Shown one piece after another: positions 36,404 to 55,734 of a stretch of 60,647 nucleotides of DNA. Under the pieces are notes generated by a model. That model had not been told where the DNA came from. It was given only the letters and a program-made list of their open reading frames with translations, and searched no databases. Both the position numbers and the translations under genes were made by a program. Within the stretch, counting starts at the first letter, position 1; each line of letters opens with the position of its first letter. The stretch is from Pirellulales bacterium (lineage in GTDB: Bacteria > Planctomycetota > Planctomycetia > Pirellulales > Thermoguttaceae), in the NCBI GenBank assembly GCA_016931075.1, contig JAFGFF010000439.1, positions 1 through 60,647 on the forward strand, given 5' to 3'.

Positions 36404-36673
36404 CGGACGCCTCCCGATAAGCAGGAATAGCCACTGCGGGGCACCGCTTAGTTTCAGTGTCTCACAGAGGCTATTGCGTTTGCTGACAATGGGTTGCGTC
36501 ACACAAACGATGGGCATTCGGCTGGCGGCCGTCTGGTCCTGAATGCAGCCAGCGGGGAAGTTCAGGCCATCTCGATGTGGTTCAGGACGTGTTCTCCATT
36601 CTGGACTGCTGTACTACACGATGAAGCAATCGGATCGCTTACCGTTTCACATAAGAAAACAAGGAATGATGAG

Positions 36674-37216
36674 ATGACCAACATCGTTTTCTTAACGCTA
36701 ATACAGATTTCCGCCTTGGGGGGCAAGCAGGGAACTTTCGAACAAGCCTACCAGCAGAGTGTGACAAGCGGAAGACCGCTAGTCGTATTGATCGGCGCCG
36801 GGTGGTGCCCCGGTTGCCAGACAATGAAGAATTCGATTCTGCCTCAGGTGAAAGAAGCCGGCGGATTGGACCGGGTGGTTTTCTTTTACGTGGACTTCGA
36901 CCGGCAACGGCAGCTTGCCGTCCGACTTAGACGCGCAACTTCCATTCCCCAATTGATCCGTTTCGACCGGACGACAGGGGGATGGAAGACCAAATGCATG
37001 GTTGGCGCGAAGAGTCCACACGAGGTTTACCAATTCATCAACGCGGGACTGGCCAATAAAACTAAGATCAGCAAGGTGTCAACCGACAATTTGCACCAAG
37101 GCCGGGTTCGAAAAACGTCTTCCGGAAATGTGACTCGGTCAAAAGCGGCCACTAGTCCTTCTCGATCTTCCTCAACGAATGTTTCTTCAACTCAGAAACA
37201 GAAAGCCCGTTCTTAA
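36674..37216 (+). CDS. Thioredoxin-like protein with WCPGC motif
   Basis: 180 aa from ATG 36674 (AAGGA upstream). FEQAYQQSVTSGRPLVVLIG, GAGWCPGCQTM, VVFFYVDFDRQ and ATSIPQLIRFDR form a thioredoxin fold; the cis-Pro follows SI. The N-terminal NIVFLTLIQISAL may be a weak signal or anchor. The last 45 residues are Ser/Thr/Lys-rich and disordered. CxxC with Pro-Gly favours a reductase or disulfide-handling role. Confidence 0.82.
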   Translation: MTNIVFLTLIQISALGGKQGTFEQAYQQSVTSGRPLVVLIGAGWCPGCQTMKNSILPQVKEAGGLDRVVFFYVDFDRQRQLAVRLRRATSIPQLIRFDRTTGGWKTKCMVGAKSPHEVYQFINAGLANKTKISKVSTDNLHQGRVRKTSSGNVTRSKAATSPSRSSSTNVSSTQKQKARS

Positions 37217-37517
37217 TCGGCGAGGATGCCAACTGGCTTCCCTTCCTGCCGGACGGTGCAGCAATAAGCTTGTGCCCAGTGACAGAAACAAAGGCAAATA
37301 CGCAGACACATGGTTAGAGAGGGTATTGATTCTAGAATTAAAATTTCGTAAGCGTTCACGACCCGCGGAATCGTTGCCTGGCATTTTTTGTAAAAAACAC
37401 CCGAAGGATCCGGAAAAAGATGGGGTGGCAGCGCGTGTCATGACGTGATGTTGGGGACCATATCGTTTTCGTGTACTGTTTTCTAGCAGCGTGATGTTCT
37501 TGAAAAGGAGATATTCA
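37217..37517. other. Intergenic, no gene recognised
   Basis: 301 bp, AT-rich in the middle with a short hairpin (ATTTTTTGTAAAAAAC). It ends in the SD AAAGGAG of the next gene. Confidence 0.5.
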
Positions 37518-37736
37518 ATGAACAGGAGAATTATGCTCTCCCTTCTTGTGGCGATGGTCGTTGTGATCACCACATCGGATTTGCAGGCTGGCCTTTTTCG
37601 ACGAAATCGCTGCCGGGCACCGGCTCGCGTTACGTGCATCAAGCAAACATGCACCGTCAAACACACGCCCAAAACCGTGAACCAATTCCCGCTCGGTAAC
37701 AATGCCGGCAGATGGTATCCATACGGCTACAAGTAG
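37518..37736 (+). CDS. Small secreted basic, Cys-containing protein
   Basis: 72 aa from ATG 37518 with AAGGAG 9 nt upstream. Signal peptide MLSLLVAMVVVITTSDLQA, then a basic mature peptide of about 48 residues (GLFRRNRCRAPARVTC, TCTVKHTPKTV) with three cysteines and an aromatic end (GRWYPYGYK). No family recognised. Confidence 0.68.
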   Translation: MNRRIMLSLLVAMVVVITTSDLQAGLFRRNRCRAPARVTCIKQTCTVKHTPKTVNQFPLGNNAGRWYPYGYK

Positions 37737-37759
37737 AGTTGCTAGTGGGCGTCACCCAA

Positions 37760-37854
37760 GAGGACCGTCCCGTGTTTTCGGCTTGCGCGCAAAGATACAG
37801 GTCCAGTGTCTGTCGGCCGAAAAACGGGACGGTCCCCGGCCCCTAAACGGTTAT
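37760..37854. repeat. Degenerate copy of the MITE family upstream of trx
   Basis: GGACCGTCCCGTGTTTTCGG and its near reverse complement (CCGAAAAACGGGACGGTCC) form about 22-bp arms at 37760-37782 and 37816-37837, followed by the terminal motif AAACGGTTAT. The right arm is like the ends of the element at 29891. It lies just before the thioredoxin SD and may separate its transcription from upstream. Confidence 0.6.
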
Positions 37855-37878
37855 GAAATAACAAAGGAGCGCAACCTC

Positions 37879-38205
37879 ATGTCCAATGTGCGCAGACTCT
37901 CAGATCGCAATTTCAAGGCGGAAGTCTTGAAATCCGAAGTGCCGACGCTCGTTGATTTTTGGGCTCCCTGGTGTGGTCCCTGCCGAACAGTAGGCCCGAT
38001 TGTCGAGCAATTAGCGGCAGAGCGTGCCCATTCCATCAAAGTGGCAAAACTCAACGTCGATGAAGCTCATGGCGTGGCAAGTGCTTACGCGATCCACAGT
38101 ATTCCCACGTTGATCATCTTCAAGGATGGAAAAATCCTGGATCGTTTCATCGGCGTCCGTTCGAAGGCGGAATTGAATCGCGCCCTGGATCGGGCTACGG
38201 CATGA
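37879..38205 (+). CDS. trxA: Thioredoxin
   Basis: 108 aa, typical length. LVDFWAPWCGPCRTVGPIVEQLA carries the WCGPC active site (quoted in part: WAPWCGPCRT). VAKLNVDEAHGVASAYAIHS and IPTLIIFKDGK, with the cis-Pro, complete the fold. AAGGAG lies 10 nt upstream. It is a cytoplasmic disulfide reductase. With the CoA-disulfide reductase converging on it 112 bp away, it supports a thiol-redox function for island 1. Confidence 0.93.
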   Translation: MSNVRRLSDRNFKAEVLKSEVPTLVDFWAPWCGPCRTVGPIVEQLAAERAHSIKVAKLNVDEAHGVASAYAIHSIPTLIIFKDGKILDRFIGVRSKAELNRALDRATA

Positions 38206-38312
38206 TCACGGCGGGCTTCGCCAACGTGAATACCCACCTTGCCTTAAGGCCGGCCTTTCAAAGAGCCCACGTCCGACGGCCAATCAAGAAAAGACGAGTC
38301 GGAAATAATGCG

Positions 38313-38330
38313 CCCGACTACCGAGTCGGG
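38313..38330. terminator. Hairpin between convergent trx and CoA-disulfide reductase genes
   Basis: CCCGACT-ACCG-AGTCGGG, perfect 7-bp stem overlapping the CoA-disulfide reductase stop codon; followed by TTGTCC only, so a weak terminator at best. Confidence 0.35.
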
Positions 38331-40096
38331 TTGTCCACGGGGTCTTTTTCATCAGAAACCCTGCGGTATTCTGGACGCATGCCGAGTGGCGGTGATGCGC
38401 CGCCGCTGTGCTTTCCATCGATTCTATCATAGGGCCACATGGCGACCCCGCCGTCCATTACGCGGACCTTGTCGAACTGGGCCGCCTTGAGAATCAAGGC
38501 AGCCTCATATCCCCGCAATGAGACCTTGCAGAAGGTGATAATTTCCTTGTCCTTGGGCAACTCGCCCAATCGTTCCCGAATCGTTCCAAGAGGAATTGAC
38601 GTGGCGCCAGGTAGGCTGACCTCGTCGCACTCAGCCGGGCTGCGAACATCCAGAAAGATAAAATCATCTTTGTTTTCCAGCATCTGGTGCACTTCCAGCG
38701 ATGGGACTCCAATCATGTTGCCGTCGAGTTTGTTTCGAGCCACGTTGGCCGCGGTGATGATGTTGTCCATGGCGGGTGCAAAGGGCGGTGCATAGCATAA
38801 ATCGACGTTGGCGAGTTGGTCGACCGTCATCCCGGCGGTAATCGCCATGGCCGCAACGTCGATACGCTTGTCACCCGCTCCCGGACCGACGGCCTGGGCA
38901 CCAAGCAGCCGTCTTGTTTTGCCGTCGACAACAAGTTTCAGCAGTAGGGAGGGCGCATTGGGCATGTAGTGGGCCCGATCCGGCCCCGGCGCCATGGCCG
39001 TGGTGACTTCGTAGCCAAGCTGCATAGCAGTCGTTTCGGTGAGCCCGGTCCGAGCCACACAGTAGTCGAAAACCTTGCACACGGTGCTTCCCAAAACCCC
39101 AGGGAAGACATCGTCGCCGCCGCAGAGGTTCACGGCCGCGACTCGTCCCTGCTTGTTGGCCGTTGAACCAAGCGGCACGAAGCAGGGCCTGCCCGTTACC
39201 AGATCGATCGACTCGACACAATCGCCGGCCGCATAGATATCCGGATCGGAAGTTCGCATGTGGTCGTTGACTTTGATCGCGCCGGTGGATCCGATTTCCA
39301 AACCGGCTTCTTGGGCCAGCTTGACATTGGGACGGGTACCCACCGCTAGGACCACCATGTCGGCAGCAATGGTGCCCTGATCGGTAATCACCGCGTTCAC
39401 GTGACCGTCGCCCTGGAAAGACACCACTTTGGTGCCGGTCAAGACCTTGACCCCGTGGGACTCCATATGTTTTTCGACCAAGCGGGCCATTTCCCAATCG
39501 AGAATATTGAGCACTTGCGGAAGCATTTCCACAATGGTCACGCGGCAGCCCGCCTCAACCAGCGCTTCAGTAGTCTCCACCCCGATCAGGCCGCCTCCGA
39601 CAATGACGACATCCTGAGCTTTTCCCTGCGCTAGAACTTCCCGAATTCCTTCGGCGTCATGTACGCCATGCAGCTTGAATATCCCGTCCAGGTTGATATT
39701 CGGAATCGGTGGCACGACCGGCGTGCCCCCCGTGGCCAACAGCAGCTTATCGTAGTCTAGCCAGGACTGTTTGCCGTTGCCAAGAGCGTGTACACGTACA
39801 CGCTTCGCCGTGCGATCAATCTCCATAGCCTCGGTTTGATTCAGCACATGAACGTTCTTGACTTTGCGGAAGAATACCGGATCGCGCACCACGCCGACCG
39901 GAGTGGAAAGAAGTTCTTTCTGCTCCTTGACCACTCCGGAAACATAATAAGGAAGACCACATCCGGCATAGGAAAGAAGCGTGCCCTTTTCGACAATGGT
40001 CACCTCGGCGTCTGCCATCAGACGAATTACCTTGGAAGCCGCTTTGGGACCGGCAGCGACGCCGCCGATGATCACTGTCTTCAAAGGACCGGGCAT
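38318..40096 (-). CDS. CoA-disulfide reductase fused to a rhodanese domain
   Basis: 592 aa from ATG 40096 (AGGAG upstream). TVIIGGVAAGPKAASKV is the FAD site and YAGCGLPYYVSG holds the single redox-active cysteine of the CoADR/NADH-oxidase family. VVIVGGGLIGVETTEAL binds NAD(P)H, and DPDIYAAGDCVE completes the FAD domain. The last about 110 residues are rhodanese-like (FIFLDVRSPAECDEVSLPGA), with Cys in TFCKVSLRGYEAA. Such fusions reduce CoA disulfides, persulfides or polysulfides. It fits the redox cargo of island 1. Confidence 0.92.
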   Translation of the reverse strand: MPGPLKTVIIGGVAAGPKAASKVIRLMADAEVTIVEKGTLLSYAGCGLPYYVSGVVKEQKELLSTPVGVVRDPVFFRKVKNVHVLNQTEAMEIDRTAKRVRVHALGNGKQSWLDYDKLLLATGGTPVVPPIPNINLDGIFKLHGVHDAEGIREVLAQGKAQDVVIVGGGLIGVETTEALVEAGCRVTIVEMLPQVLNILDWEMARLVEKHMESHGVKVLTGTKVVSFQGDGHVNAVITDQGTIAADMVVLAVGTRPNVKLAQEAGLEIGSTGAIKVNDHMRTSDPDIYAAGDCVESIDLVTGRPCFVPLGSTANKQGRVAAVNLCGGDDVFPGVLGSTVCKVFDYCVARTGLTETTAMQLGYEVTTAMAPGPDRAHYMPNAPSLLLKLVVDGKTRRLLGAQAVGPGAGDKRIDVAAMAITAGMTVDQLANVDLCYAPPFAPAMDNIITAANVARNKLDGNMIGVPSLEVHQMLENKDDFIFLDVRSPAECDEVSLPGATSIPLGTIRERLGELPKDKEIITFCKVSLRGYEAALILKAAQFDKVRVMDGGVAMWPYDRIDGKHSGGASPPLGMRPEYRRVSDEKDPVDNPTR

Positions 40097-40567
40097 AGTG
40101 CATTCTCCTGTAACGACAATAGGCAATATGGTCTTAAAGCAATGTGAGATATTCCCGCCAGAGTCACCGCCATCGACAAACTGGAGGCAGTTACACCTAT
40201 AATGTCTATTTTATATTGAATGACTATTATATCATGGTACTGCAATATGACAACAAGGCTCGCTCGCAAATGCCTTACCCCCATCCATACGGGGGGCGCG
40301 GCCGCGCCGAACGATTGCTTGTTCCGGGCACAAAAGAGGGGCCGTGGCAATCCACCGCCTCATGCAAGGCAGGTTATCCAGCAGGATCCACCTTCCAAAG
40401 TCATCCTTTGGCCATTTCCAGGGCTCGCGTTAGATGGTATTTCGCAGAGACGATGATCTCCGTCTCTGCTTTTCCATGTTCAGCCATCAGTACCTGGAGA
40501 CCGCGCCAATCCGCCTCTTCTGGCGTTATCCGGAATTGTGGATCTTGTTCGATGGTAAAATGTGATC
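40097..40567. other. Control region of the CoA-disulfide reductase gene; possible small minus-strand remnant
   Basis: Contains the promoter at 40226. The minus strand at 40404-40560 encodes a protein-like frame without a proper start (RITPEEADWRGLQVLMAEHG, then KAETEIIVSAKYHLTRALEM). It may be a truncated gene; the family is not recognised. A GCAGAGACG/CGTCTCTGC hairpin falls inside it. Confidence 0.45.
40226..40253 (-). promoter_or_regulatory. Sigma-70 promoter of the CoA-disulfide reductase gene
   Basis: On the minus strand TTGTCA, 16-bp spacer, TATAAT (plus-strand ATTATA at 40226-40231 and TGACAA at 40248-40253). Start predicted near 40219, giving a leader of about 120 nt. Confidence 0.65.
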
Positions 40568-41932
40568 CTATGACGTCCTGCTGCGGCCATCTGTCTCGGG
40601 CAATTGAATACCCAGTTGTTTGATTTTTCGGAACAGCGTGCTGGGATGGATTCCCAATCCTTGCGCCGCGGCTTTGCGGTTTCCATCATGTCGCCGGATT
40701 GCCTCGATGATGTGCATCTTCTCAAGCAACCTCAACGTCAGCTCGCCACCACTGCCGGGCGCTTCCCATTGGGCCCGATCCCGAAGGAAAGCTGGCAAGT
40801 GTTTCGGTTCCACCAGTCCGCCCCTACAAAGCACAAAAGCATGTTCGATGATGTTCTCCAATTCACGAATGTTGCCCGGGTAGTCATAGTCGAGCAAGAT
40901 GGCCATCACCTCTTCCGTTACATCCACCACATTCTTCTGCTGCAACCCATTGAACTTCGAGACAAAGTGTTCCACCAGAAGGGGAATATCCTCCCGGCGG
41001 TCGCGAAGCAGTGGCAGTTGGAGCCTTATGATATTCACACGGTAATACAAATCCTCACGGAAGACTCCTTTCTTGACCAATTGGCCGAGATCCCGATTGC
41101 TCGCCGCGAGAATACGTATGTCGGTGCTCACCGGATCGACTGATCCGAGAGGTTCGTAGACCCTTTCTTGTAGCACCCGAAGCAACTTCGACTGCATGGC
41201 CGGTGAAACATCGCCAATCTCATCCAGGAAGATGGTCCCGCCCGCGGCCACGGCGAACCGGCCGGGTTTGTCTTTACGGGCGTCTGTAAACGCGCCGGCC
41301 TTGTAGCCGAATAGTTCAGATTCGAGGAGTGTGTCGGGCAATGCCCCGCAGTTGATGGCCACAAATCGTTTCTGACGCCGTGGGGAAAGATCATGGATAG
41401 CACGGGCAACGAGTTCCTTGCCCGTGCCGCTGGCTCCCTCGATCAACACGGTGCTGTCACTATCTGCTAACTGCGGAAGTACATCAAGAATACGACGCAT
41501 GGATGCACTCTGAGCAACGATGTCCACGAACGTGTATTTGTCCTGGAGTTCCTTGCGCAATTGCTCAATCACGCTCAGATCACGAAATGTTTCTACACCA
41601 CCTATCACTTTACCGTTTTGGTTCTTCAAGGTGGTCGCTGAAATGCTCACTGAAATCCGCTGGCCGTCCGCCTTGATGATATAGATAGGCTTGCACGAGA
41701 TGGCCTTTCCCGTGCGCAATGCGTCCTGTAATGCACACTCGTTTTCACAAATGTTGGCGTGAAACACATCGCTGCACCGTTGCCCGATCGCATCCTGCCG
41801 CAACACGCCTGTAATATTCTCGGCTGCCTGGTTGAACGAAGTAATCCGCCAGTTCTCGTCGACGGTAAAAACGCCGTCGACAATGGAATCAAGGATGACG
41901 TCCTTTGTTTGTTTCCGCAGGAATTCGCTCAT
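40568..41932 (-). CDS. PAS-domain sigma-54-dependent activator
   Basis: 454 aa from ATG 41932. Residues about 12-115 form a PAS domain with four cysteines (C53, C62, C66, C80), possibly a redox or cluster sensor. AAA+ domain: Walker A GASGTGKE (166-173), ESELFGYKAGAFTDA with the sigma-54 contact loop reading GAFTDA instead of GAFTGA (213-218), Walker B TIFLDEIGD, YPGNIRELENIIEHA. C-terminal Fis-type HTH (NRKAAAQGLGIHPSTLFRKI). It is probably the control protein of island 1. It may bind the repeats at 42105 and 31463. Confidence 0.92.
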   Translation of the reverse strand: MSEFLRKQTKDVILDSIVDGVFTVDENWRITSFNQAAENITGVLRQDAIGQRCSDVFHANICENECALQDALRTGKAISCKPIYIIKADGQRISVSISATTLKNQNGKVIGGVETFRDLSVIEQLRKELQDKYTFVDIVAQSASMRRILDVLPQLADSDSTVLIEGASGTGKELVARAIHDLSPRRQKRFVAINCGALPDTLLESELFGYKAGAFTDARKDKPGRFAVAAGGTIFLDEIGDVSPAMQSKLLRVLQERVYEPLGSVDPVSTDIRILAASNRDLGQLVKKGVFREDLYYRVNIIRLQLPLLRDRREDIPLLVEHFVSKFNGLQQKNVVDVTEEVMAILLDYDYPGNIRELENIIEHAFVLCRGGLVEPKHLPAFLRDRAQWEAPGSGGELTLRLLEKMHIIEAIRRHDGNRKAAAQGLGIHPSTLFRKIKQLGIQLPETDGRSRTS

Positions 41933-42104
41933 GTGATCAGCCCAGACAATGCGAGGTACACAACCTTCTGACAACGGCTTTTGTCGTTGGCCCTTGGGGA
42001 CGCAGGTGCGGTGTCCGACTCGGGCATGGAGCGGAGGGACGCGTAACCTCTTGTCTTCATGGAGGTTATGGAATAGAATGTTTTGTTGTCTCGTCAATGT
42101 GCAA

Positions 42105-42161
42105 TTATAGGATCGCGTTATGCAATCCAGCAACCCATTATAGCATCGCGATCTGCAATAG
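42105..42161. promoter_or_regulatory. Tandem upstream activator-like repeats between the activator and NUDIX genes
   Basis: Two units of the form TTATAG-N-ATCGCG-N4or5-TGCAAT at 42105-42126 and 42138-42159, 33 bp apart (about three helical turns), in the divergent control region. The first contains TCGCGTTATGCAA, nearly the palindrome at 31463. Confidence 0.5.
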
Positions 42162-42302
42162 TCGCCTCTTGCTTCGATGCAGGGTAAACGGCAATGTTCG
42201 CTGTTGCTGGAGAAACACCAGATACAACCGATGCGCCGAGTTGCTTGATCCGTACCCGAGTATTGAAACAGATGTTCCACCGTGAATTCTCAGAAATTAG
42301 CC

Positions 42303-42773
42303 ATGAATGACTACATCAAGACCATGAGGCAATTGGTTGGATCACAGCCGATTTTATTACCGGGTGTTCGTGCCCTGATTTTCGACCCGGAGGAGAAAAT
42401 TCTGCTCCAAAGACGGCGAGACATGCCTCGCTGGTGTTTGCCTTCCGGCAGCGTAGAACTTGGCGAGACAGCGCTCGAGGCACTCAAACGTGAGGTGAAG
42501 GAAGAAACGTCTCTTGTCGTCCAAGAGGCAGAACCCATGGGTTTGTATTCCGGCCCATCACAGAAGTTCGCGTATCCCAACGGTGATGAAATATTCTGCT
42601 TTTCGATTGCGTTTGTTGTGCGCCAATGGCAAGGAGAACCGCGAGCAGACGGCATCGAAGGGTCGGAGGTCTGTTTTTTCGAGATGTCGCAATTGCCGGA
42701 CGAACTGGTGCCGGTTCACAGGCCGACGATCAAAGATTACAAGAGCTATTGCGGCGTCTTCCTGCTGCACTGA
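42303..42773 (+). CDS. NUDIX hydrolase
   Basis: 156 aa from ATG 42303 (a GTG at 42282 is possible). The Nudix box at residues 49-71 is complete: G49 x5 E55 x7 R63-E64-V-K-E67-E68. The N-terminal LLPGVRALIFDPEEKILLQR and later FAYPNGDEIFCFSIAFVVRQ match MutT-like proteins acting on nucleotide diphosphate derivatives such as NADH, ADP-ribose or CoA. Substrate unknown. It starts a plus-strand pair with the Thi4-like gene, 47 bp away. Confidence 0.88.
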   Translation: MNDYIKTMRQLVGSQPILLPGVRALIFDPEEKILLQRRRDMPRWCLPSGSVELGETALEALKREVKEETSLVVQEAEPMGLYSGPSQKFAYPNGDEIFCFSIAFVVRQWQGEPRADGIEGSEVCFFEMSQLPDELVPVHRPTIKDYKSYCGVFLLH

Positions 42774-42820
42774 GCAACATCAGGCCGCCGAGAAGAACGA
42801 CTGTTGAAAGGAATATGTTT

Positions 42821-43609
42821 ATGGACAAGCTGGACGAGGTGGACATTTCTAGAATAATCCTATGCACTTACCACGAAAGACTTCTTGACCGCCTGGCCAG
42901 TGACGTGGTCATCGTCGGCGCTGGGCCTTCCGGTCTGGTCGCGGCGTTCTTTTTGGCAAAATCTGGCATCAAGGTAACGGTCTTGGAGAAACGGTTGTCG
43001 CCGGGTGGTGGAATCTGGGGCGGGGGAATGGCAATGAACGTTGCGGTGGTGCAAGATGAAGTAGTTCCCTTGCTTGAAGAGTTCGGAATCCGTTGCCAGT
43101 TGATGCGAAATGGTCTGCATGCGGTGGATTCTATCGAGTTGGCGGCCGTCTTGTGTGGGAAGGTTCTCCAGGCTGGCGCGAGCGTGCTGAATCTGATGAC
43201 GGTGGAGGATCTGTGCCTGCACCATGATCGTGTGACGGGCGTCGTCGTTAACCGTAGCGGGGTCTTTCCCTCGCTTCCCGTCGATCCAATTATGTTCTCA
43301 GCGAAAGCGGTCGTGGACGCGACGGGACATGAGGCAGTTCTCGTCCAGTCGCTTCGGAAACGCCGGCTTCTCAGTCCTCACACGGTGTCCGAGGTCGGGG
43401 AAGGTCCGATGAACGCGACAGAAGGAGAAAGCTTTGTCGTCGATCGCGCTGCAGAGGTCTTTCCAGGACTCTGGGTCTCCGGGATGAGTGTCTCGGCCGC
43501 CTTTGGCGGGCCCCGCATGGGACCGATTTTTGGCGGCATGCTGTTGTCCGGCAAGCGTATTGCCCAATCCATTGCCACCCAGTTGGGACCATCACCGTCA
43601 AGTGAGTAG
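42821..43609 (+). CDS. Thi4-family thiazole synthase / ribose 1,5-bisphosphate isomerase-like flavoprotein
   Basis: 262 aa from ATG 42821 (GAAAGGA 8 nt upstream). DVVIVGAGPSGLVAAFFLAK, LEKRLSPGGGIWGGGMAMN and VVDATGHEAVLVQSL are the conserved dinucleotide site and Thi4/RBPI core. GLWVSGMSVSAAFGGPRMGPIFGGMLLSGK is the C-terminal signature (read in two halves). Archaeal and anaerobic Thi4 make the thiamin thiazole from NAD and sulfide; the yeast enzyme sacrifices its own cysteine. I see no equivalent cysteine, so a sulfide-dependent type is more likely. NAD chemistry could link it to the NUDIX gene. Confidence 0.83.
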   Translation: MDKLDEVDISRIILCTYHERLLDRLASDVVIVGAGPSGLVAAFFLAKSGIKVTVLEKRLSPGGGIWGGGMAMNVAVVQDEVVPLLEEFGIRCQLMRNGLHAVDSIELAAVLCGKVLQAGASVLNLMTVEDLCLHHDRVTGVVVNRSGVFPSLPVDPIMFSAKAVVDATGHEAVLVQSLRKRRLLSPHTVSEVGEGPMNATEGESFVVDRAAEVFPGLWVSGMSVSAAFGGPRMGPIFGGMLLSGKRIAQSIATQLGPSPSSE

Positions 43610-43640
43610 ATTCTCTGGAGTTGGAAACGAGGGAGGCATT

Positions 43641-43753
43641 ATGCCTACGACGTTCTTGCTTCATAATGACGTGATTGCCAGGTAACGATGAAAAACATCG
43701 GCCTGATCTGCGGAATGAGCTGGGAATTGTCAACTGAGTATTATCGCCGATAA
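43641..43753 (+). pseudogene. Two short N-terminal gene fragments at the right end of island 1
   Basis: A 14-codon frame with a good SD (MPTTFLLHNDVIAR, 43641-43685) is followed at 43688 by KNIGLICGMSWELSTEYYRR and a stop. The second matches the start of aspartate/glutamate racemases (KTIGLIGGMSWESTxxYYR). Nothing further of either gene remains. Confidence 0.5.
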
Positions 43754-43786
43754 AGTAACTATCTCAAATGTGTCAGTCGCCATGCT

Positions 43787-43800
43787 CTGTGGTACCACAG
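43787..43800. repeat. Perfect 14-bp palindrome
   Basis: CTGTGGTACCACAG, in non-coding sequence before the right-end module. Role unknown. Confidence 0.45.
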
Positions 43801-43907
43801 CAGGATGCAGGCGGCTGTCAAGAGAAGTCGGGAAGCACTTTATTTCAGCCATACACAGAGTGCTTTTGTCCCAAAAGTGATCGAATGCATGGACCAAAGC
43901 CTGAAGC

Positions 43908-44174
43908 GTTGTGAGATTCCCGTTTTTGGCTTCAGCGGTTTTTTCTGGAGAGAGATGACCTGGTAGGAAAAGCCCGATTCCGGTGCTCGTATAGGGCGAC
44001 CGCGATTGACACCGGATGGCACAGATGTGGCACAGAACCCTTGCTAAACGGCGCTAAATCATGGAAGATATGGAAAGTGAGGTGAGGTTGGAAGCCTCGC
44101 GACCGTCTACGTAAACCCAATCCAATTCAGGAAATACGTTCGTCTCTCTCCGCCGGAGAGGACCCGCGCAGAGC
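43908..44174. repeat. Right-end module of island 1
   Basis: Shares GTTGTGAGATTCCCG, ATGGCACAGATGTGGCACAG, GAAAGTGAGGTGAGGTTGGA and AGGAAATACGTTCGTC with 57282-57523, in the same order and directly before a tRNA fragment. One plus-strand frame reads DGTDVAQNPC and then a stop in both copies (TAA here, TGA there), possibly the tail of a lost integrase. Confidence 0.75.
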
Positions 44175-44219
44175 GGCCTCCGGAGCCGAAGGTTAGTGGT
44201 TCGAATCCACTCGGGGATA
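44175..44219 (+). other. Attachment-site copy: tRNA-Arg 3' half with altered T arm
   Basis: Matches 26833-26877 except in the T arm, which is GTGG-TTCGAAT-CCAC instead of CAGG-TTCGAAT-CCTG; both sides of the stem changed together. It separates island 1 from island 2. Confidence 0.82.
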
Positions 44220-44479
44220 TTTTCTAACTTCTTGTGCCAGAAGAACATGCGGAAACAGTCTTCTGTGTTTCCAGTCATGTTCATCCGAGAGGTGGCACAG
44301 AAACTGACTGAAGCAGTCTCTCTTCTCTGCCGGATGCGACGTTTTGGACTGTTCGTGGCTCTGGCCTCAACTTCCTTTGCCAGAAGACCTTCCGTCGTTT
44401 CTGGTTTTGCACCTCTTGTTCAACAGGAAGGTCAAATTCCATAGAGCTTCGGCCACAGGTGCCGAAGGTCACAGTTTCT
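44220..44479. repeat. Left-end module of island 2
   Basis: Counterpart of 26878-27147 (see that entry). From about 44480 the sequence is unique. Confidence 0.78.
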
Positions 44480-44861
44480 GGGTAGCCTGCGAGATGTTGG
44501 TGGGCTTGTTCTTCCTTCGAGCCCGCGTTTGCACGTGCCGGATCTTGGCACAGTTCTTCCCGTTTGGACGCGTTGTAGCAGCGTTGTGGGGCAGCGTGCC
44601 CATTCTTGAAGTGGCCAAGAACTGCTCTTGAAGTGTGAATGACCTTACACGCAATGTGCAGGCGTACACTTTGGGGATACTGCTGACTTCTTTCAGCAGA
44701 AGGTCTTGTGGAAATCGTAGTCCTCGCGTTCGGCGGAGAAAGCGGTGATCGACGTGCTCCGGGGCGAGCCCGAGAAAACCGACAAGGAAGAAGGCGCTCT
44801 GAAGCGTCCGTGGGCCGAGAAGGTCCGGCGATCGTGAATAGCGCAATCCGAGTCAGAGCCG
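44480..44861. other. Non-coding stretch, no gene recognised
   Basis: No frame with a start signal or motif. A short CTTCTTTCAGCAGAAG hairpin is visible near 44690. Confidence 0.45.
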
Positions 44862-45242
44862 CTATTTCTTCTTCGTGTCACGGAAAACGGGTGACTCGGC
44901 AAGGGTGAAGAGAACGACCTCCTCGCCGGTATGGGTGCTGATGTCATGGTGCAGGGTCAACACCTTGACGCCGGTGATCTCTTCGACCATCGCCTCCATG
45001 ACGGGACGGGCCGTTTCGATCAGATGGGTCCGCACTTGTTTGAGAAGGTCCCGCCCCTTGTCAGCCGAAAGCGATTTGACCAGATGCTGCTCGGCCGCGG
45101 TCAACACGCCCTGAAGGCGGACCACGAGAAGGTCACCGAGCAGGTGGGCAAAAATGTCCTTGGGTCCCCGACCCATGTAGTCCTGCTCGAAGCGACTGAC
45201 GCCCTCACAAATGGCGGCTTCGATTTCTCCCTGTGTTTTCAT
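44862..45242 (-). CDS. DUF2294-family protein (first copy)
   Basis: 126 aa from ATG 45242, preceded by a G-run. YMGRGPKDIFAHLLGDLLVVRLQGVLTAAE, then LIETARPVMEAMVEEITGVKV and LHHDISTHTGEEVVLFTL (quoted in pieces), are the DUF2294 pattern. This cytoplasmic family has no settled function and is found in cyanobacteria, Aquificae and Firmicutes. A second member stands at 46311. This copy is transcribed divergently from the rest. Confidence 0.85.
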   Translation of the reverse strand: MKTQGEIEAAICEGVSRFEQDYMGRGPKDIFAHLLGDLLVVRLQGVLTAAEQHLVKSLSADKGRDLLKQVRTHLIETARPVMEAMVEEITGVKVLTLHHDISTHTGEEVVLFTLAESPVFRDTKKK

Positions 45243-45365
45243 TGCCCCCCCGAATGAACTGGAATTCAAGCGGAAGTCCTCTGCCATTGATTGATCGAAT
45301 AGAAGACGAATATGCCTTCCCAACACGAATATAATACCAAATGTGAGAGAAAGACAAGAGTCCTA

Positions 45366-45393
45366 TTGCGTTCCCGGCCCATTGTCGTACAAT
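45366..45393 (+). promoter_or_regulatory. Sigma-70-like promoter of the structured leader RNA
   Basis: TTGCGT, 16-bp spacer, TACAAT. Predicted start near 45400, about 85 nt before the hairpins at 45484. Confidence 0.45.
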
Positions 45394-45483
45394 TCAGGGT
45401 GTGAAAGAGTCGTGGGGCAGGGTTGCGAGACACTGACACGCGGCTTTCGCAGCGAAGTCGTCGGATGACTAGATAGAGAGCAA

Positions 45484-45566
45484 CTCGGCCGTGCCGAGGG
45501 GCTCGTTGACGAGTAAGCCGACGTGGTCGAACACCTCCGGGTGTTCCGCCACGTCGGCTTTTTTTG
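45484..45566 (+). ncRNA. Three-hairpin RNA ending in a strong terminator (leader or sRNA)
   Basis: Consecutive perfect hairpins: CTCGGC-CGT-GCCGAG (45484-45498), CTCG-TTGA-CGAG (45502-45513), then AAGCCGACGTGG / CCACGTCGGCTT with an inner GAACACC/GGTGTTC stem and a T7 tract (45515-45566). It precedes the TPR gene by about 55 bp. It is either a small RNA of about 165 nt or an attenuator for the downstream operon. It lacks the repeated GGA motifs of CsrB-type RNAs. No known riboswitch recognised. Confidence 0.6.
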
Positions 45567-45619
45567 TTCTTGTCGGTTGCTGATGCGAATAGTCCCCCAC
45601 TTTGGAAGGAACAACGGAC

Positions 45620-45925
45620 ATGAGAAACGATCCCGAGAATACATCGCCCGATCGCCAGTACGCGGCAGCGTATGCCGCACACTACACACAGCGTGATTTG
45701 CCGATGGCCCTTCAGCTTTACAGGGAGGTCATGGCATCGTATCCGGGCACGCGCGAAGCAGACTACGCCCGGGAGCAGATTCAGAACATCGTGAACACCA
45801 CAGTGTCGAAGCGCGAACTCCTGGATGCTGAGATCGAACTGGCTCTTGCTCACTTTAACCACGATGCCCCATCGGATGATGGGCGGACTGCTGTCAGGCC
45901 AATCGCTTCGGGACTTTCAACGTAG
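45620..45925 (+). CDS. Small TPR-like protein
   Basis: 101 aa from ATG 45620 (AAGGA upstream). RQYAAAYAAHYTQRDLPMAL, QLYREVMASYPGTREADYA and QIQNI form one to two TPR-like helical hairpins (hydrophobic/Ala/Tyr spacing as in the TPR consensus), followed by a charged helix and a short disordered tail. It is the first gene of the island 2 run and probably a small adaptor. Confidence 0.72.
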   Translation: MRNDPENTSPDRQYAAAYAAHYTQRDLPMALQLYREVMASYPGTREADYAREQIQNIVNTTVSKRELLDAEIELALAHFNHDAPSDDGRTAVRPIASGLST

Positions 45926-45964
45926 CGCCGGCGCATCCATGCGGTGACGAGGGAGATTGGTTTC

Positions 45965-46231
45965 ATGCTAGCGATTGGATTGGTGGAAACGAGAGGCCTG
46001 ATTGGTCTGGTGGCTGCGAGCGATGCCATGGTGAAAGCGGCGAAAATCGAAATTGTGAAGCGAATAGGGATTGGAGGAGGCCTGGTAACGATCATCGTCA
46101 CCGGCGACGTGGCCAGCGTGCGTGCGGCCGTCGAAGCAGGCGCTCGCGTGGCCGGCGAGGTAGGCGAACTAGTGAGTAGTCATGTGATCCCGAATCCGGC
46201 AGAAGGCGTGATGGAGGTTTTCTTGGCGTGA
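45965..46231 (+). CDS. Bacterial microcompartment (BMC-H) shell protein, orphan
   Basis: 88 aa from ATG 45965 (AGGGAG upstream). LAIGLVETRGLIGLVAASDA, MVKAAKIEIVKR, GGLVTIIVTGDVASVRAAVEAG and SSHVIPNP follow the PduA/EutM/CcmK hexamer fold from end to end. The pore loop reads IGIGGG instead of KIGSG. There is no BMC-P (pentamer), no BMC-T and none of the fucose/rhamnose aldolase genes of planctomycete compartments. It is embedded with DUF2294 and CsrA genes. It might form sheets or tubes, or join a compartment encoded elsewhere. Confidence 0.92.
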   Translation: MLAIGLVETRGLIGLVAASDAMVKAAKIEIVKRIGIGGGLVTIIVTGDVASVRAAVEAGARVAGEVGELVSSHVIPNPAEGVMEVFLA

Positions 46232-46310
46232 CGCTTTCGGGCGTTTCGCCGCGTTGGCCGAAATGGTTTTGGGAATGTGCGATGTTCACATATACCCAGG
46301 GAGTAGTCCC

Positions 46311-46730
46311 ATGAACAAGCTCGACCCCACTATGGCGGAACAGGTTGCTCAGGCGATCAGCGTCTTTCAAGAGCAGCGGACCGGCTATTTACCCAAAGCG
46401 GTGACCGTGGTCCTGAGCGATGACACACTGGTCGTCACGCTGCACGAGGCGCTCTCGCCCGCCGAGAAGGCCCTGTCCCGCACGCCCGAGGGCGCTGCTC
46501 GGGTACAGGAGTATCACCGGCAGCTCTTCAAGGATTCCGTCGACCTGCTTCGGCAGGAAATCAAACGCATCACTGGCATCGCCGTGCGCGAAGCCGCCGC
46601 GGAGGTGGAGATAACGACCGGCGCGATGGTGCATGCATTCACGACCGGCACGATGGTGCAGGTGTTCCAGCTTGCTGGAAGAATCTCCACGGACACCTGG
46701 AACGGGAGTGGTCCAAGCGATCAGTCATAA
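46311..46730 (+). CDS. DUF2294-family protein (second copy)
   Basis: 139 aa from ATG 46311 (AGGGAG 8 nt upstream). VAQAISVFQEQRTGYLPKAV, TVVLSDDTLVVTLHEALSPAE, LLRQEIKRITGIAVREAAAEV (partly quoted) and ITTGAMVHAFTTGTMVQVF match the family and the copy at 44862. The two are diverged paralogues on either side of the BMC and TPR genes. Function unknown. Confidence 0.83.
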   Translation: MNKLDPTMAEQVAQAISVFQEQRTGYLPKAVTVVLSDDTLVVTLHEALSPAEKALSRTPEGAARVQEYHRQLFKDSVDLLRQEIKRITGIAVREAAAEVEITTGAMVHAFTTGTMVQVFQLAGRISTDTWNGSGPSDQS

Positions 46731-46747
46731 AACACGGAGGGTGTGCC

Positions 46748-46975
46748 ATGTTGGTCTTGTCGAGGAAAAGCAACGAATCAGTGGTGATTGGAGGGGCCGA
46801 CGGGTTTCGTCGCCTGCTGAAAGTCAAGGTGCTCGGGATCAAAGGCGCGAGCGTGACACTCGGCTTCGAGGTCGACGCCGACATTCCGGTCCATCGTTCG
46901 GAGGTGTGGGAGCGAATCAACGGGAACGGCCACGTGGGCAGGCGGACGGAAGACTCCGTCGCGCCGCCTGCGTGA
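46748..46975 (+). CDS. csrA: CsrA-family RNA-binding translational regulator
   Basis: 75 aa. MLVLSRKSNESVVIGG, LLKVKVLGIKGASVTLGFEV and IPVHRSEVWERI are the complete CsrA fold with the RNA-binding first strand and the VHR motif. GGAGG lies upstream; 17 bp separate it from the DUF2294 gene. CsrA binds GGA in hairpin loops to block or protect mRNAs. Its place in this cargo suggests local post-transcriptional control. Confidence 0.94.
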   Translation: MLVLSRKSNESVVIGGADGFRRLLKVKVLGIKGASVTLGFEVDADIPVHRSEVWERINGNGHVGRRTEDSVAPPA

Positions 46976-47116
46976 TGCTTTGTGCCCGCCTGGCAATCGG
47001 GTCGTGCGGCGGGACTCCCAACCCGCGTGAGAACGGACGGCGCGAACCGAGAGTCCGCTGCCGTGCAGGAATGAGATACGGACGAGTGCCCGTGAAATGT
47101 AGATAAGGAGAGTGTC

Positions 47117-47989
47117 ATGTGGATGGTATACGCGTTGTATTTCGTAATCGCGGCGGCGGTGGTCGTCTTTCTGGCAGGCATCCGGATCGTCCGCCCCACC
47201 CACCGGGGCTTGGTCGAGAGGCTCGGCAAGTACCGGCGTTTCGCCGATCGCGGCTTCAACTGGATCATTCCCCTCGTCGACCGAATGATCCAGGTGAACA
47301 TCACGGAGCAGATGGTCGACGCCCAGCCGCAAGAGATCATCACCAACGACAATCTCAATGCCCGGGTGGACGCCCAGGTATATTTCAAGGTGAAGGAAGA
47401 CGAAGAGAGCGTCAAGAACTCTCAGTACAACGTCAACAACTATCAATCCCAGATTGTAAACCTTGCCCGGACGACGTTGCGGAACATCATCGGCACGCTC
47501 ACGCTGAAATCGGCCAATAGCGAACGAGACAAGATCAACGGCGCGCTCCTCACCACATTGAGTAGGGAAACGATGAGTTGGGGAATGGCCATCGTCAGGA
47601 CGGAGTTGAAGGAGATCGACCCTCCAAAGGATGTCCAGGAGACGATGAACAAGGTCGTGAAGGCGGAAAACGAGAAGGTGGCCGCCTTGGACTTTGCCGA
47701 CGCCGTCGAACGACAAGCGGACGGAGTAAAGAGGGCCGAGATCAAGAAGGCCGAAGGGGTGAAGCAAGCCAGAATCCTCGCGGCCGAGGGCGAGTCCGAG
47801 GCCATACGACTCGTCAACGAGGCGGCAAACACGTACTTCGTTGGAAACGCGCAACTTCTGCGAAAGCTTGAAGCCCTTGAGAAGGCGCTCAGTGAAAATG
47901 CCAAAATCGTCATCCCGTCGGGCTCCGAGATTGTGAATGTGATCGGCGAGATGGCCGGCGTCCTGCCGCTGGCGGAGGCGACCCGATGA
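47117..47989 (+). CDS. SPFH-domain membrane protein (stomatin/slipin/QmcA-like)
   Basis: 290 aa. N-terminal transmembrane helix (MVYALYFVIAAAVVVFLAGI), then GIRIVRPTHRGLVERLGKY, NWIIPLVDRMIQVNITEQM and the SPFH core with RTTLRNIIGTLTL, plus a C-terminal coiled coil rich in Glu/Ala/Lys (AENEKVAALDFADAVERQ). These proteins make large rings or rafts that scaffold membrane domains and proteases. SD AAGGAG. It overlaps the next gene by 4 nt. Confidence 0.9.
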   Translation: MWMVYALYFVIAAAVVVFLAGIRIVRPTHRGLVERLGKYRRFADRGFNWIIPLVDRMIQVNITEQMVDAQPQEIITNDNLNARVDAQVYFKVKEDEESVKNSQYNVNNYQSQIVNLARTTLRNIIGTLTLKSANSERDKINGALLTTLSRETMSWGMAIVRTELKEIDPPKDVQETMNKVVKAENEKVAALDFADAVERQADGVKRAEIKKAEGVKQARILAAEGESEAIRLVNEAANTYFVGNAQLLRKLEALEKALSENAKIVIPSGSEIVNVIGEMAGVLPLAEATR

Positions 47990-48504
47990 AGAAGATCCAG
48001 GTCGGCGATCACGCGCCGGAGTTTACGTGGAAGACTCTAACCGGCGAGCAGATGCACCTGCGTGACTTTCGCGACAAGAAGGTCGTGGTGCTGTTCTTCT
48101 ATCCGAAGGACGGCACTGCCATTTGTACGAAGGAAGCCTGCGCGTTTCGCGACGCCTATGACCACTTCGCCGAAGCGGGGGCCGTCGTGATCGGAGTCAG
48201 CGGGGACTCGGCCGAGAGCCACCGTGCCTTTACTGCTCAGCACAACCTGCCGTTCCATCTCGTCAGCGACGGACAGGACTCGCTTCGACAAGCGTTTGGC
48301 GTGCCCAAGACTTTTGGCCTGCTGCCGGGTCGAGTCACTTATGTGATCGACGAGGGCGGCATCGTGCGAATGGTCTTCAGCGCGCCGCTGACGGCCAGCG
48401 GCCATGTCAGCGAAGCGCTGAAAGTGGTTGGGGGACTGATTCGTCTGAAACAGACGAGTGAATCCGATGTTCGTCCAGGGGGGAAGCAATCATGTCGTCC
48501 GTAG
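47986..48504 (+). CDS. Peroxiredoxin, BCP/PrxQ type
   Basis: 172 aa. VGDHAPEFTWKTLTGE is the family opening. The active site FFYPKDGTAICTKEACAFRD has peroxidatic Cys47 and resolving Cys52 five residues later, as in the classic BCP pair. Then GVSGDSAESHRAF and LVSDGQDSLRQAFGV follow. It reduces peroxides using thioredoxin. A non-typical tail of about 20 residues (TSESDVRPGGKQSCRP) overlaps the next gene start by 13 nt. Confidence 0.93.
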   Translation: MKKIQVGDHAPEFTWKTLTGEQMHLRDFRDKKVVVLFFYPKDGTAICTKEACAFRDAYDHFAEAGAVVIGVSGDSAESHRAFTAQHNLPFHLVSDGQDSLRQAFGVPKTFGLLPGRVTYVIDEGGIVRMVFSAPLTASGHVSEALKVVGGLIRLKQTSESDVRPGGKQSCRP

Positions 48505-49190
48505 ATGCACTCGTTAAGCGTTTGGCGGCCGAGGCTGCCGCCGCAACCGAGCGAATTCACTTGCTCCAGGCAGAGGCGGCCAAGGCTTTTATTGGTCAGG
48601 AAGAGCGATTCAGGCGATTTGTTGCCCTGACTGAGCGTATCCACGCCATCTTGCGACCGCGCCTCGAGGCGTTCAGAAAGCTGAACGTCTTCAAGGACAT
48701 TGTGCAAAGCGTAAGCCTGGAGCTGCGAGGCCCCGAGGAACGGGGATTCCACGGGAGAACAACCACGCTGCTGGTTCCCTTTTCGGACGCGTGTCCGGCG
48801 AAAGTCGAACTGTCCTTCCGTCTAGGGCATGACGGTTCCATCGAGAATGCCCTCATGGATTATCACTTGGAGATCCTGCCGATCTTCATCAAGTATGACA
48901 GCCACGATCAACTGGTCATCCCGATCGACCATCCCAGAGAGGATGTGATCGCGGCATGGATTGATGACAAGCTCGTTGGGTTCACCCGAACGTACTTCGA
49001 GATGTACTTCACGGAGCAATACCAGAAGCAGAGCTTCGAGATGGATCCCGTCATGAACGTTCGATTTCCGAGAGCGTTTGCCGCGGGTGAAAAGCAATAC
49101 GAGGGGCGAACCTATCACTTCTACACCAAAGAGTCGTTGCAGGCGTTTGAAACGGCTCCGTCGCAGTATGTCGAGATCGCGCAATTATGA
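48492..49190 (+). CDS. Helical protein with degenerate YHS-like C-terminus
   Basis: 232 aa. The first 60 residues are an Ala/Glu-rich helix. A beta-rich middle follows (LLVPFSDACPAKVELSFRLG). The last about 45 residues (MDPVMNVRFP, then KQYEGRTYHFYTKESLQAF and ETAPSQYVE) align with the YHS domain (DPVCGMxV ... YxGxxYYFCSxxCxxxF ... PxxY), but every metal-binding cysteine has been replaced. Metal binding of the usual kind is thus unlikely. The rest has no recognised family. Both ends overlap neighbouring genes. Confidence 0.72.
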   Translation: MSSVDALVKRLAAEAAAATERIHLLQAEAAKAFIGQEERFRRFVALTERIHAILRPRLEAFRKLNVFKDIVQSVSLELRGPEERGFHGRTTTLLVPFSDACPAKVELSFRLGHDGSIENALMDYHLEILPIFIKYDSHDQLVIPIDHPREDVIAAWIDDKLVGFTRTYFEMYFTEQYQKQSFEMDPVMNVRFPRAFAAGEKQYEGRTYHFYTKESLQAFETAPSQYVEIAQL

Positions 49191-50659
49191 GAGTCCTCCT
49201 GGTTTATCCGCCGACTCCGGACACGTTCTGGAGTTTCAAGCACGTTTTGCGTTTCGTCTCGAAACGCGCCGCCTTCCCGCCGCTGGGCCTCCTGACGGTG
49301 GCCGCGATGCTGCCCGCCGACTGGGAACTCAAGTTGGTGGACCTGAACGTGACTCGCCTGACCGACGACGACCTGCGTTGGGCGGACTACGTGATGCTCA
49401 GCGCGATGATTGTGCACAAGGACTCGGTATCGGGCATCGTGGACCGTTGTCGGCAGTTCGGCACACCGGTCATCGCCGGAGGCCCGCTTTTCACGACCGG
49501 CCATGCCGCCTTTGGGAACATCGATCACTTCGTGTTGGGCGAAGCGGAAGAACTCATGCCGCAGCTCATCGACGACATGCGGCGCGGGACTCTGTGCCAC
49601 ACCTACGCCGCGGCAAGTCGCCCCGACATCGTTCGCACGCCGGTGCCCCGCTGGGATCTGATCGAGTTGCGCCACTACGTCACGATGGCGGTGCAGTTTT
49701 CGCGGGGATGCCCGTTCGATTGCGAGTTCTGCGACATCGTCGTCATGAACGGCCGCGTCCCGCGCACCAAAGCGCCGGCCCAGTTGATCGCCGAACTCGA
49801 ACAGTTGCGCCTGCACGGATGGCGGGACATGGTCTTCGTGGTCGACGACAACTTCATTGGCAACAAGAAGCAAGCGAAGGCGTTGCTCAGAGAACTTATT
49901 GAATGGCGCACGCGCACTCGCACCAAGATCGGTTTCATGACCGAGGCCTCGGCCAACATGGCGGACGATCCGGAACTGTGCGACCTGATGGTGCGAGCCG
50001 GCTTCAAAAAGGTGTTCATCGGATTCGAGACCCCCTCGACGGAGAGCCTGGAAGAATGCCGGAAGATGCAAAACTGCGGCCGGGATCTTGTCGAGACCGT
50101 GAAGATCCTGCAACGGGCCGGCCTGGAGGTCATGGGCGGGTTCATCGTCGGGTTCGACAGCGACCCAGCCGACATCTTCAAGCGTCAGTTCGAGTTCATT
50201 CAGCGTTCGGGCGTGGTCACGGCGATGGTGGGGCTTCTGACCGCGTTGCCGGAGACCCGGCTCTACCGTCGACTGATGAAAGAGGGGCGACTCGTGGCGG
50301 AAACCACTGGAAACAACACCCAGGCCGCGCTGAACTTCCTTCCGAAATTGGACCGTGACTTCCTCGTCAGCAGTTATCGCGAACTCATGAAGAAACTCTA
50401 TGAGCCGCGTAACTACTACCAGCGAATTCGTACCTTCCTGAAACATCATAGGCCGGAAGGCCCGCGTGTCCGACTCGCGTGGTCAGACATTCATGCCTTT
50501 TTCAAATCCCTATGGTTGCTCGGGGTCTGGCACCGTGGACGCCGAGCCTACTGGCGATTTTGCGTGACGACCCTGTTCAGACGGCCTCAGCAGTTCAGCC
50601 AGGCCATGGAATTGACGATCATCGGTCATCACTTTCGTTGTGTGGCGAAGTCGCTGTGA
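49187..50659 (+). CDS. B12-binding radical SAM protein (DUF4070-like)
   Basis: 490 aa. An N-terminal Rossmann B12-binding-type domain (RVLLVYPPTPDTFWSFKHVL, PPLGLLTVAAMLP) leads to the radical SAM site RGCPFDCEFCDI (Cys near 174, 178, 181), then FVVDDNFIGNKKQA and GFIVGFDSDPADIF. The C-terminal region resembles DUF4070, found in hopanoid methylase HpnP and related enzymes. It probably methylates or rearranges an unreactive carbon. Start overlaps the previous stop (ATGA). Confidence 0.88.
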   Translation: MRVLLVYPPTPDTFWSFKHVLRFVSKRAAFPPLGLLTVAAMLPADWELKLVDLNVTRLTDDDLRWADYVMLSAMIVHKDSVSGIVDRCRQFGTPVIAGGPLFTTGHAAFGNIDHFVLGEAEELMPQLIDDMRRGTLCHTYAAASRPDIVRTPVPRWDLIELRHYVTMAVQFSRGCPFDCEFCDIVVMNGRVPRTKAPAQLIAELEQLRLHGWRDMVFVVDDNFIGNKKQAKALLRELIEWRTRTRTKIGFMTEASANMADDPELCDLMVRAGFKKVFIGFETPSTESLEECRKMQNCGRDLVETVKILQRAGLEVMGGFIVGFDSDPADIFKRQFEFIQRSGVVTAMVGLLTALPETRLYRRLMKEGRLVAETTGNNTQAALNFLPKLDRDFLVSSYRELMKKLYEPRNYYQRIRTFLKHHRPEGPRVRLAWSDIHAFFKSLWLLGVWHRGRRAYWRFCVTTLFRRPQQFSQAMELTIIGHHFRCVAKSL

Positions 50660-50694
50660 ATCACGAACCACTCACTCCGCATGGGAGAACCTGG

Positions 50695-51420
50695 ATGAGA
50701 CACGCTTTCGGATGGTTCTGGAAAACGGGGATGCTTTCCACGTTTCTCGCCGGCCTGTTTGCCGTCCTCCCGATCGTGATCACCGTTGGGATCATGGCCT
50801 GGGTCGGGGGACTGCTCAAGGCGTGGCTCGGCCCGGAGAGCTTCGTCGGTAAGGGTTTGTCCCATATGGGGCTTCGATTTGTCACCGATCCGACCGTGGC
50901 GTCCGTCCTCGCCTGGGTTGCCGTCCTGGCCGCCATCTGGCTCCTGGGTGCTCTGCTGAAATCGGTCGGGAAGAAGAGGATCGAAAAGGCGTTCAACGCC
51001 GCGATGGAACGGATTCCGCTGGTCAATGTCCTCTACAGACCGGTCGCCCAGGTTGTCGACCTGCTGCAACGCAAGCCGGCCGATACGATGCAGGGCATGA
51101 GCGTCGTCTACTGCGGCTTCGGGCACGAGGGAGGCGCCGGGTTCCTGGGGCTGCTCGTTTCCGATCGAGTCTACCGCTTCGACGGGCGGATGTGCCAGAT
51201 CGTCTACGTACCGACCTCGCCAGTCCCGATGTCGGGAGCCGTCATCTTCGCCGCGGCCGACTCGGTCCACCGGGTGGACATGGCTGTTGATGACCTGATG
51301 AAGATATGTCTTTCGATCGGCGTGATGTCCTCGCAGGTGATTCCCGACCAATACGTCGTCCCGCCGGAGGATCCATCTGCATTGTCCGCAAACGGAACTT
51401 GTCCCCACGGAAAGGAATAG
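50695..51420 (+). CDS. DUF502 family membrane protein
   Basis: 241 aa from ATG 50695 (GGGAGA 6 nt upstream). Two transmembrane helices near the N-terminus (STFLAGLFAVLPIVITVGIM, and SVLAWVAVLAAIWLLGALLK) and the family motifs IPLVNVLYRPVAQVVDLL and VYVPTSPVPMSGAVIF. The following soluble domain ends in VVPPEDP. DUF502 proteins are widespread, of unknown role and often thought to be envelope-stress related. Confidence 0.88.
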   Translation: MRHAFGWFWKTGMLSTFLAGLFAVLPIVITVGIMAWVGGLLKAWLGPESFVGKGLSHMGLRFVTDPTVASVLAWVAVLAAIWLLGALLKSVGKKRIEKAFNAAMERIPLVNVLYRPVAQVVDLLQRKPADTMQGMSVVYCGFGHEGGAGFLGLLVSDRVYRFDGRMCQIVYVPTSPVPMSGAVIFAAADSVHRVDMAVDDLMKICLSIGVMSSQVIPDQYVVPPEDPSALSANGTCPHGKE

Positions 51421-51425
51421 CGGCC

Positions 51426-51698
51426 ATGACCGAACCTGATAATCACTCGATGTTCATGAAGATTCGCATCCACTACCGCGATCAACATTCCGGCCCCTGG
51501 GCGACCACCATTCGTGACGTCCGTCGGATTCCTCAGGTGGGCGACTTTGTCGCGCCTGCGCCGGTCAAGGTCTTTCGCGTGGTGATGACCCTTCATGTCC
51601 TCTTCGAGGCAGACTACGACGCGGAAGTCTTCGCCGAGGTCATCGACTTCGCCGAGGTGCAAACCGAGACGCTCGGAGAAGAGGTGTGGCAGGGGTGA
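51426..51698 (+). CDS. Small conserved-type protein of unknown function
   Basis: 90 aa from ATG 51426, 5 bp after the previous stop, with AAAGGAA upstream. KIRIHYRDQHSGPWATTIRD, RRIPQVGDFVAP and KVFRVVMTLHVLFEADYD suggest a compact beta-rich protein. No family recognised. Tight spacing places it in the operon. Confidence 0.68.
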   Translation: MTEPDNHSMFMKIRIHYRDQHSGPWATTIRDVRRIPQVGDFVAPAPVKVFRVVMTLHVLFEADYDAEVFAEVIDFAEVQTETLGEEVWQG

Positions 51699-51776
51699 CG
51701 TGTCTGCCCATCGCCTGAAAATCGTCCGATTCGGAAAACCATGTTCAGCAGCGTGCGTTTGCACAAGGAGAGAACC

Positions 51777-52010
51777 ATGCTGAAGGGAACCACCGACAAA
51801 CTGAAACTCGTGGCCGTTGCGGTCATCGTCTTGATCGTTGTGGTCGTGGTCTTGCAGAACACGCAACCCGTCCAAACCCAACTGCTCTTCTTCACGGTGA
51901 CGATGCCCAACGCGGCCCTGCTGTTCGGAACGTTGATCAGCGGCTTTGCGATCGGCGTATTGACGGCGGGGCACATCGTGGCCCGCGCCAAGCGCGGGCC
52001 GTCGGAGTGA
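51777..52010 (+). CDS. LapA/DUF1049-like two-helix membrane protein
   Basis: 77 aa from ATG 51777 (AAGGAGA upstream). Two hydrophobic helices (LKLVAVAVIVLIVVVVVLQN and ALLFGTLISGFAIGVLTAGH) with NTQPVQTQLLFF between them match LapA/DUF1049. In Escherichia coli LapA works in lipopolysaccharide assembly control, but the domain is broader than that role. Confidence 0.82.
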   Translation: MLKGTTDKLKLVAVAVIVLIVVVVVLQNTQPVQTQLLFFTVTMPNAALLFGTLISGFAIGVLTAGHIVARAKRGPSE

Positions 52011-55709: not shown

Positions 55710-55734
55710 GTTGGGCAGCCGAAACCGAGGTGCC

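Follow-up and report, generated by a model that had tools for sequence, protein, structure and literature searches.

Two tandem islands at a tRNA-Arg(CCG) gene of a Pirellulales bacterium and the compensated T arm that lies between them

Organization of the tRNA-Arg(CCG) locus

The window analysed here, a stretch of 60,647 nucleotides from a Pirellulales bacterium (contig JAFGFF010000439.1), contains an intact tRNA-Arg(CCG) gene followed in order by island 1, a displaced copy of the tRNA 3' half (attM), island 2 and a second displaced 3' half (attR) (Table 1). The left ends that follow the tRNA and attM are homologous (80% over ~270 bp), as are the right ends that precede attM and attR (85% over ~190 bp), and the locus is therefore made up of two related islands in tandem. 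An intact tRNA gene with displaced 3' fragments of the same orientation bounding the inserted DNA is the arrangement that defines a tRNA-gene genomic island. The window contains eight copies of the short motif TGGCACAGA; six of these, all on the forward strand, are located in the four island ends, and these repeats may be arm-type sites.

Table 1. Positions of the tRNA-Arg(CCG) gene, its displaced copies and the island features within the window
Feature	Position	Strand	Length	Basis or remarks
Resident tRNA-Arg(CCG), intact	26804-26877	+		ARAGORN; Rfam RF00005, 62.8 bits
attL, the resident 3' half	26832-26877	+		T stem ACAGG/CCTGT
Island 1	26878-44173		17.3 kb	Pfam
Island 1 left end	26878-27147	+		80% identity with the island 2 left end
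Arm-like site TGGCACAGA, island 1 left end	26951-26959	+		Motif scan
Island 1 right end	43984-44173	+		85% identical to 57334-57523; tandem TGGCACAGA at 44017 and 44028 (motif scan)
attM, displaced tRNA-Arg 3' half	44174-44219	+		Compensated T stem AGTGG/CCACT
Island 2	44220-57523		13.3 kb	Pfam; 46.2-51.4 kb syntenic with contig C19 of G065
Island 2 left end	44220-44489	+		80% identical to the island 1 left end; arm-like site at 44293
Island 2 right end	57334-57523	+		Tandem TGGCACAGA at 57366 and 57377
attR, displaced tRNA-Arg 3' half	57524-57568	+		ACAGG/CCTGT arm; 45/45 identical to the resident gene

The cargo of the two islands, as assigned by Pfam, is listed here separately. Island 1 encodes FeMo-Co-type proteins, ETF and ETF-QO, ArsR, thioredoxins, a sigma-54 activator, NUDIX and Thi4 proteins and a pyridine nucleotide-disulphide oxidoreductase with a rhodanese domain; the adjoining Nitro_FeMo-Co family proteins at 30540-31391 are next to the ETF and ETF-QO genes. 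Island 2 encodes two MpsC proteins, SPFH, AhpC, radical SAM and DUF502 proteins, a glycosyltransferase and two GH130 proteins. Its core cargo at 46212-51417 (MpsC, SPFH, YHS-like, radical SAM and DUF502) is a patchily distributed cluster that is syntenic, with 58-90% protein identity, in a Pirellulales MAG of the same family and a different genus (G065, locus L190, 1563-7703) and is found in part in G005; no tRNA-Arg fragment was found on these syntenic G065 and G005 stretches. An inverted repeat, TAGAGCTTCGGCC-N5-GCCGAAGGTC-NNN-GTTTCTG, is present in both left ends of the window (44436-44480 and about 27094-27140) and in a left end of G065 (L035, 81-125); it is ~80% like nucleotides 14-57 of tRNA-Arg and is the more decayed in island 1.

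Just past attR, at 57622-57663, lies a further tRNA-Arg 3' half that is decayed, with GAGCCGAAGGTT exact and one T-stem pair broken, which suggests an older insertion at the same site. ARAGORN also predicts a second tRNA at 44145-44220, which would make the middle copy a functional gene in its own right. This is highly improbable and the prediction was set aside as spurious, since Rfam gives no tRNA match there and finds only the real tRNA, and since the 5' "half" of the predicted gene belongs to the right end of island 1, a conserved stretch that recurs at 57334-57523.

Compensation in the middle copy

The 46 nt of attM are identical to the resident 3' half at 42 positions, and all four differences (C50G, A51T, T63A and G64C, at 44196, 44197, 44209 and 44210 of the window) fall in T-stem pairs 50-64 and 51-63, where C-G has become G-C and A-T has become T-A with pairing restored. 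Joined to the resident 5' half, the attM 3' half is scored by ARAGORN as tRNA-Arg(CCG) and has a calculated cloverleaf energy of -26.4 kcal/mol, equal to that of the resident tRNA; changing one strand of the T stem alone gives -20.7 kcal/mol, a calculated cost of 5.7 kcal/mol. The initial annotation held that the middle copy differs from the tRNA only in the T stem, with both strands changed, and that random decay would not keep the pairing, and both statements are borne out: four random substitutions would give the compensated pattern with a probability of 6.8e-6 (analytic, Watson-Crick pairs only) or 1.9e-5 (simulation, GU allowed). The compensation is real and beyond chance.

The same sequence is found in a working gene. 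In G065 (JAFGDS010000102.1) the 3' half of an intact tRNA-Arg(CCG) is identical to attM at 46 of 46 positions, in agreement with the proposal that the middle copy is the 3' half of a working tRNA-Arg. Random decay of a displaced copy has a local counterpart in the copy just past attR, which does look decayed; for attM, however, the probability of the pattern, about 1e-5, together with the perfect match to the intact G065 gene, rules chance decay out for practical purposes.

Crossover position and proposed history

Twelve displaced fragments in nine genomes bear on where strands are exchanged. In each, identity to the fragment's own resident tRNA begins 0-4 nt before C32, and the right ends next to the fragments are mostly unrelated between the nine genomes; uncompensated T-stem pairs were found in none of the twelve. 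Islander crossover subsites lie in the anticodon loop, the T loop or a junction, with 2083 islands in the anticodon class (PMC4383910), and an identity block that starts at the anticodon loop, as in these twelve fragments, is the mark of that class. Because the identity stops 0-4 bases before C32, exchange is probably at the anticodon loop. Incoming elements of the anticodon-centred class supply the T arm, the acceptor strand and the left end that are found at a junction, and it would follow from exchange at this position that the attM arm is that of island 2, the attL arm that of island 1, and the attR arm that of the chromosome before either island.

The reading that we favor, and consider quite probable, is that attM marks the middle attachment site in a tandem pair of islands without integrases, and that its GTGG arm is the attP arm of island 2, displaced by island 1. 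A tyrosine recombinase would exchange strands at the anticodon loop of tRNA-Arg(CCG), so that at each junction the T arm, the acceptor 3' strand and the island left end come from the attP of the incoming circle and the tRNA 3' half that was there before is moved to the far end. attR would then hold the oldest ACAGG arm, probably the native one. In the simplest order island 2 inserted first, so that the resident tRNA worked with a GTGG arm, and island 1, with an ACAGG arm, later inserted at the tRNA and moved the GTGG arm aside to attM. The pairing in attM would have stayed intact because each integration relies on an attP arm of this type to restore an essential tRNA. Alternatively, island 1 may have come first and island 2 may have entered the displaced fragment, in which case the arm of island 2 would never have been part of the tRNA of this host. 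Arrival of the copy with an island, as had been proposed at the outset, is supported.

A point against the link of the arm to island 2 comes from another relative, G033, in which a left end at the tRNA is 92% identical to that of island 2 over 158 nt and is accompanied by an ACAGG arm; a given left end is thus not tied to one arm. Such separability would fit a crossover 3' of the T arm, in which the resident gene keeps its native arm and GTGG belongs to the right end of island 1, brought from a host with GTGG as its native arm; intact genes with GTGG do occur in other lineages. A crossover at that position nevertheless leaves unexplained why in nine genomes right ends that are mostly unrelated are followed by tRNA sequence that starts exactly at the anticodon loop rather than by the tip alone; moreover attM and attR bear different arms although the right ends before them are 85% identical. 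A crossover 3' of the arm is judged improbable, and the preferred reading remains exchange at the anticodon loop with GTGG as the attP arm of island 2.

The GTGG arm in relatives

An island of this type also occupies the tRNA-Arg(CCG) of G065. On that contig, 18.5 kb downstream of the tRNA, lies an ACAGG fragment, and the right end in front of this displaced fragment is 78% similar over 72 nt to that of island 1. By analogy, this is how the window would have looked after its first insertion. The G065 island at the tRNA carries polysaccharide genes that are unrelated to the cargo of the window. In two other genomes resident and displaced arms also differ by compensated pairs, i.e. AGAGG resident versus ACAGG displaced in G037 and ACTGG resident versus AGTGG displaced in G379, each with the fragment on another contig; in a further five (G033, G015, G057, RI_301 and G250) the resident and displaced arms are equal.

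A tRNA-Arg with the GTGG/CCAC arm was the check that the initial annotation had put forward, and such genes are known: the arm is matched in 26 of the 397 genomes sampled from the class, and the loci inspected are mostly intact tRNA-Arg genes spread through the class. The core of the attM half, 39 nt from CTCCGG to GGGG, is also present in two further named MAGs. The left ends of G037 and G379 are 90% identical and their arms differ. Together with the ACAGG arm beside the G033 left end, this indicates that the arm is altered within a lineage of elements, through exchange or through compensatory substitution during its service in a tRNA. Across the class, variation is seen at T-stem pairs 50-64 and 51-63.

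An origin of GTGG by compensatory substitution, within an element lineage that served as the tRNA 3' half of some host, is compatible with the preferred reading and is given a minority chance. Arm plus core differ from those of G033 at about 5 of 48 sites, close to the 8% by which the adjoining left ends diverge; the G037 and G379 pair, and the variation of the two T-stem pairs across the class, also fit. The exact 46-nt half in G065 and the 39-nt core in two further MAGs argue against substitution within the lineage.

The additional suggestion that the middle copy records its donor is unsupported, and the reading of a unique donor is weakened by the class-wide presence of the arm, which among inspected copies is mostly in intact genes; the G033 left end with its different arm and the unrelated G065 cargo also tell against it. 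Within the family, the radical SAM gene of island 2 is matched best in G065 (88%). A chromosomal control gene comes about as close, with 87% over 127 aa in G065 and also 87% over the same stretch in G026, and the radical SAM match does not show transfer. A search of viral contigs for the 3'-half pattern found none, and the attM region has no plasmid match and phage matches to the tRNA only.

Integrases at the same tRNA

Pfam found a tyrosine integrase in neither island. Searched in six frames with PF00589, the whole assembly gave seven matches, with none on the island contig at E<=1, and the assembly (94% complete) contains no close relative of the tRNA-adjacent integrases described below, the best being 27-32% identical. 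Both absences count against the preferred reading. Attachment sites at both ends with the element's own integrase missing are the features of a cis-mobilizable element, and from their sequence the two islands have the appearance of elements that either lack an integrase and are mobilized in trans or have lost the one they had.

In seven relatives (L102, L122, L022, L019, L015, L020 and L012) a tyrosine integrase gene does follow tRNA-Arg(CCG) immediately on its 3' side, in keeping with the preferred reading. Tandem short arm-like repeats, GTGGCACAAGAAAGTGGCACAGA in G045, are found between the tRNA and the integrase and resemble the island ends, with analogous tandem repeats before the integrase in six other relatives. 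Judged by these neighborhoods, tRNA-Arg(CCG) is an integration hotspot in the class. The G037 integrase copy (L022) contains an in-frame TGA, and the G033 contig, with the left end closest to that of island 2, stops before any integrase could show.

Significance and comparison with known systems

The locus, and again G065, as one assembled locus each, suggest that a tRNA-Arg(CCG) gene can have its T arm replaced by the attP arm of an island and that earlier arms survive in the displaced fragments, which may serve as a marker for the order of island insertion. Differences in tRNA T arms are accordingly to be read with caution, and not as purely vertical evolution. A broader proposal, advanced tentatively and held to be somewhat less probable than its converse, is that the T arm of an essential Planctomycetia tRNA-Arg has been repeatedly overwritten by passing islands and would evolve with the elements rather than with the host, the displaced fragments forming a readable record of earlier working arms.

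Precedents in the literature cover parts of this arrangement; none directly on point was found for Planctomycetes. The anticodon-loop islands of Islander (PMC4383910) share with the window an intact tRNA rebuilt at one end, a displaced 3' fragment at the other, identity that starts from the anticodon loop, and tandem arrays. However, Islander requires one integrase per island, which neither window island has, and unlike that class the middle arm of the window differs from the resident one by two compensated pairs.

A diverged attP is known from mycobacteriophage Boilgate, whose attP and attB-4 share a 43-bp core with five differences and yield a functional tRNA at attL (PMC10865867). As in Boilgate, an attP with a diverged tRNA 3' half would still rebuild a folding tRNA, and the core differences of attM do leave a foldable tRNA, the joined halves forming a tRNA-Arg(CCG) of equal cloverleaf energy; Boilgate differs in being a phage with its own integrase, a single insertion and a tRNA-Lys target (PMC10865867).

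The ssrA islands of Dehalococcoides are in tandem at one RNA gene, as are those of the window, and many are without integration genes and were proposed to be cis-mobilizable elements that accrete; they differ in the tmRNA target, serine recombinase, T-loop insertion and 20-bp repeats (PMC3146451). Elements of the ICESt1 type, as far as their cis-mobilization and tandem accretion are treated in the citing paper (PMC3146451, ref. 54), resemble the window islands in having att sites at both ends and recombination genes not found; there mobilization is by a related helper, which for the window islands is only putative. The process is thus known from the Islander principle, the Boilgate attP and the tandem islands of Dehalococcoides, and a tandem locus that keeps the intermediate arm is a clear new example of it.
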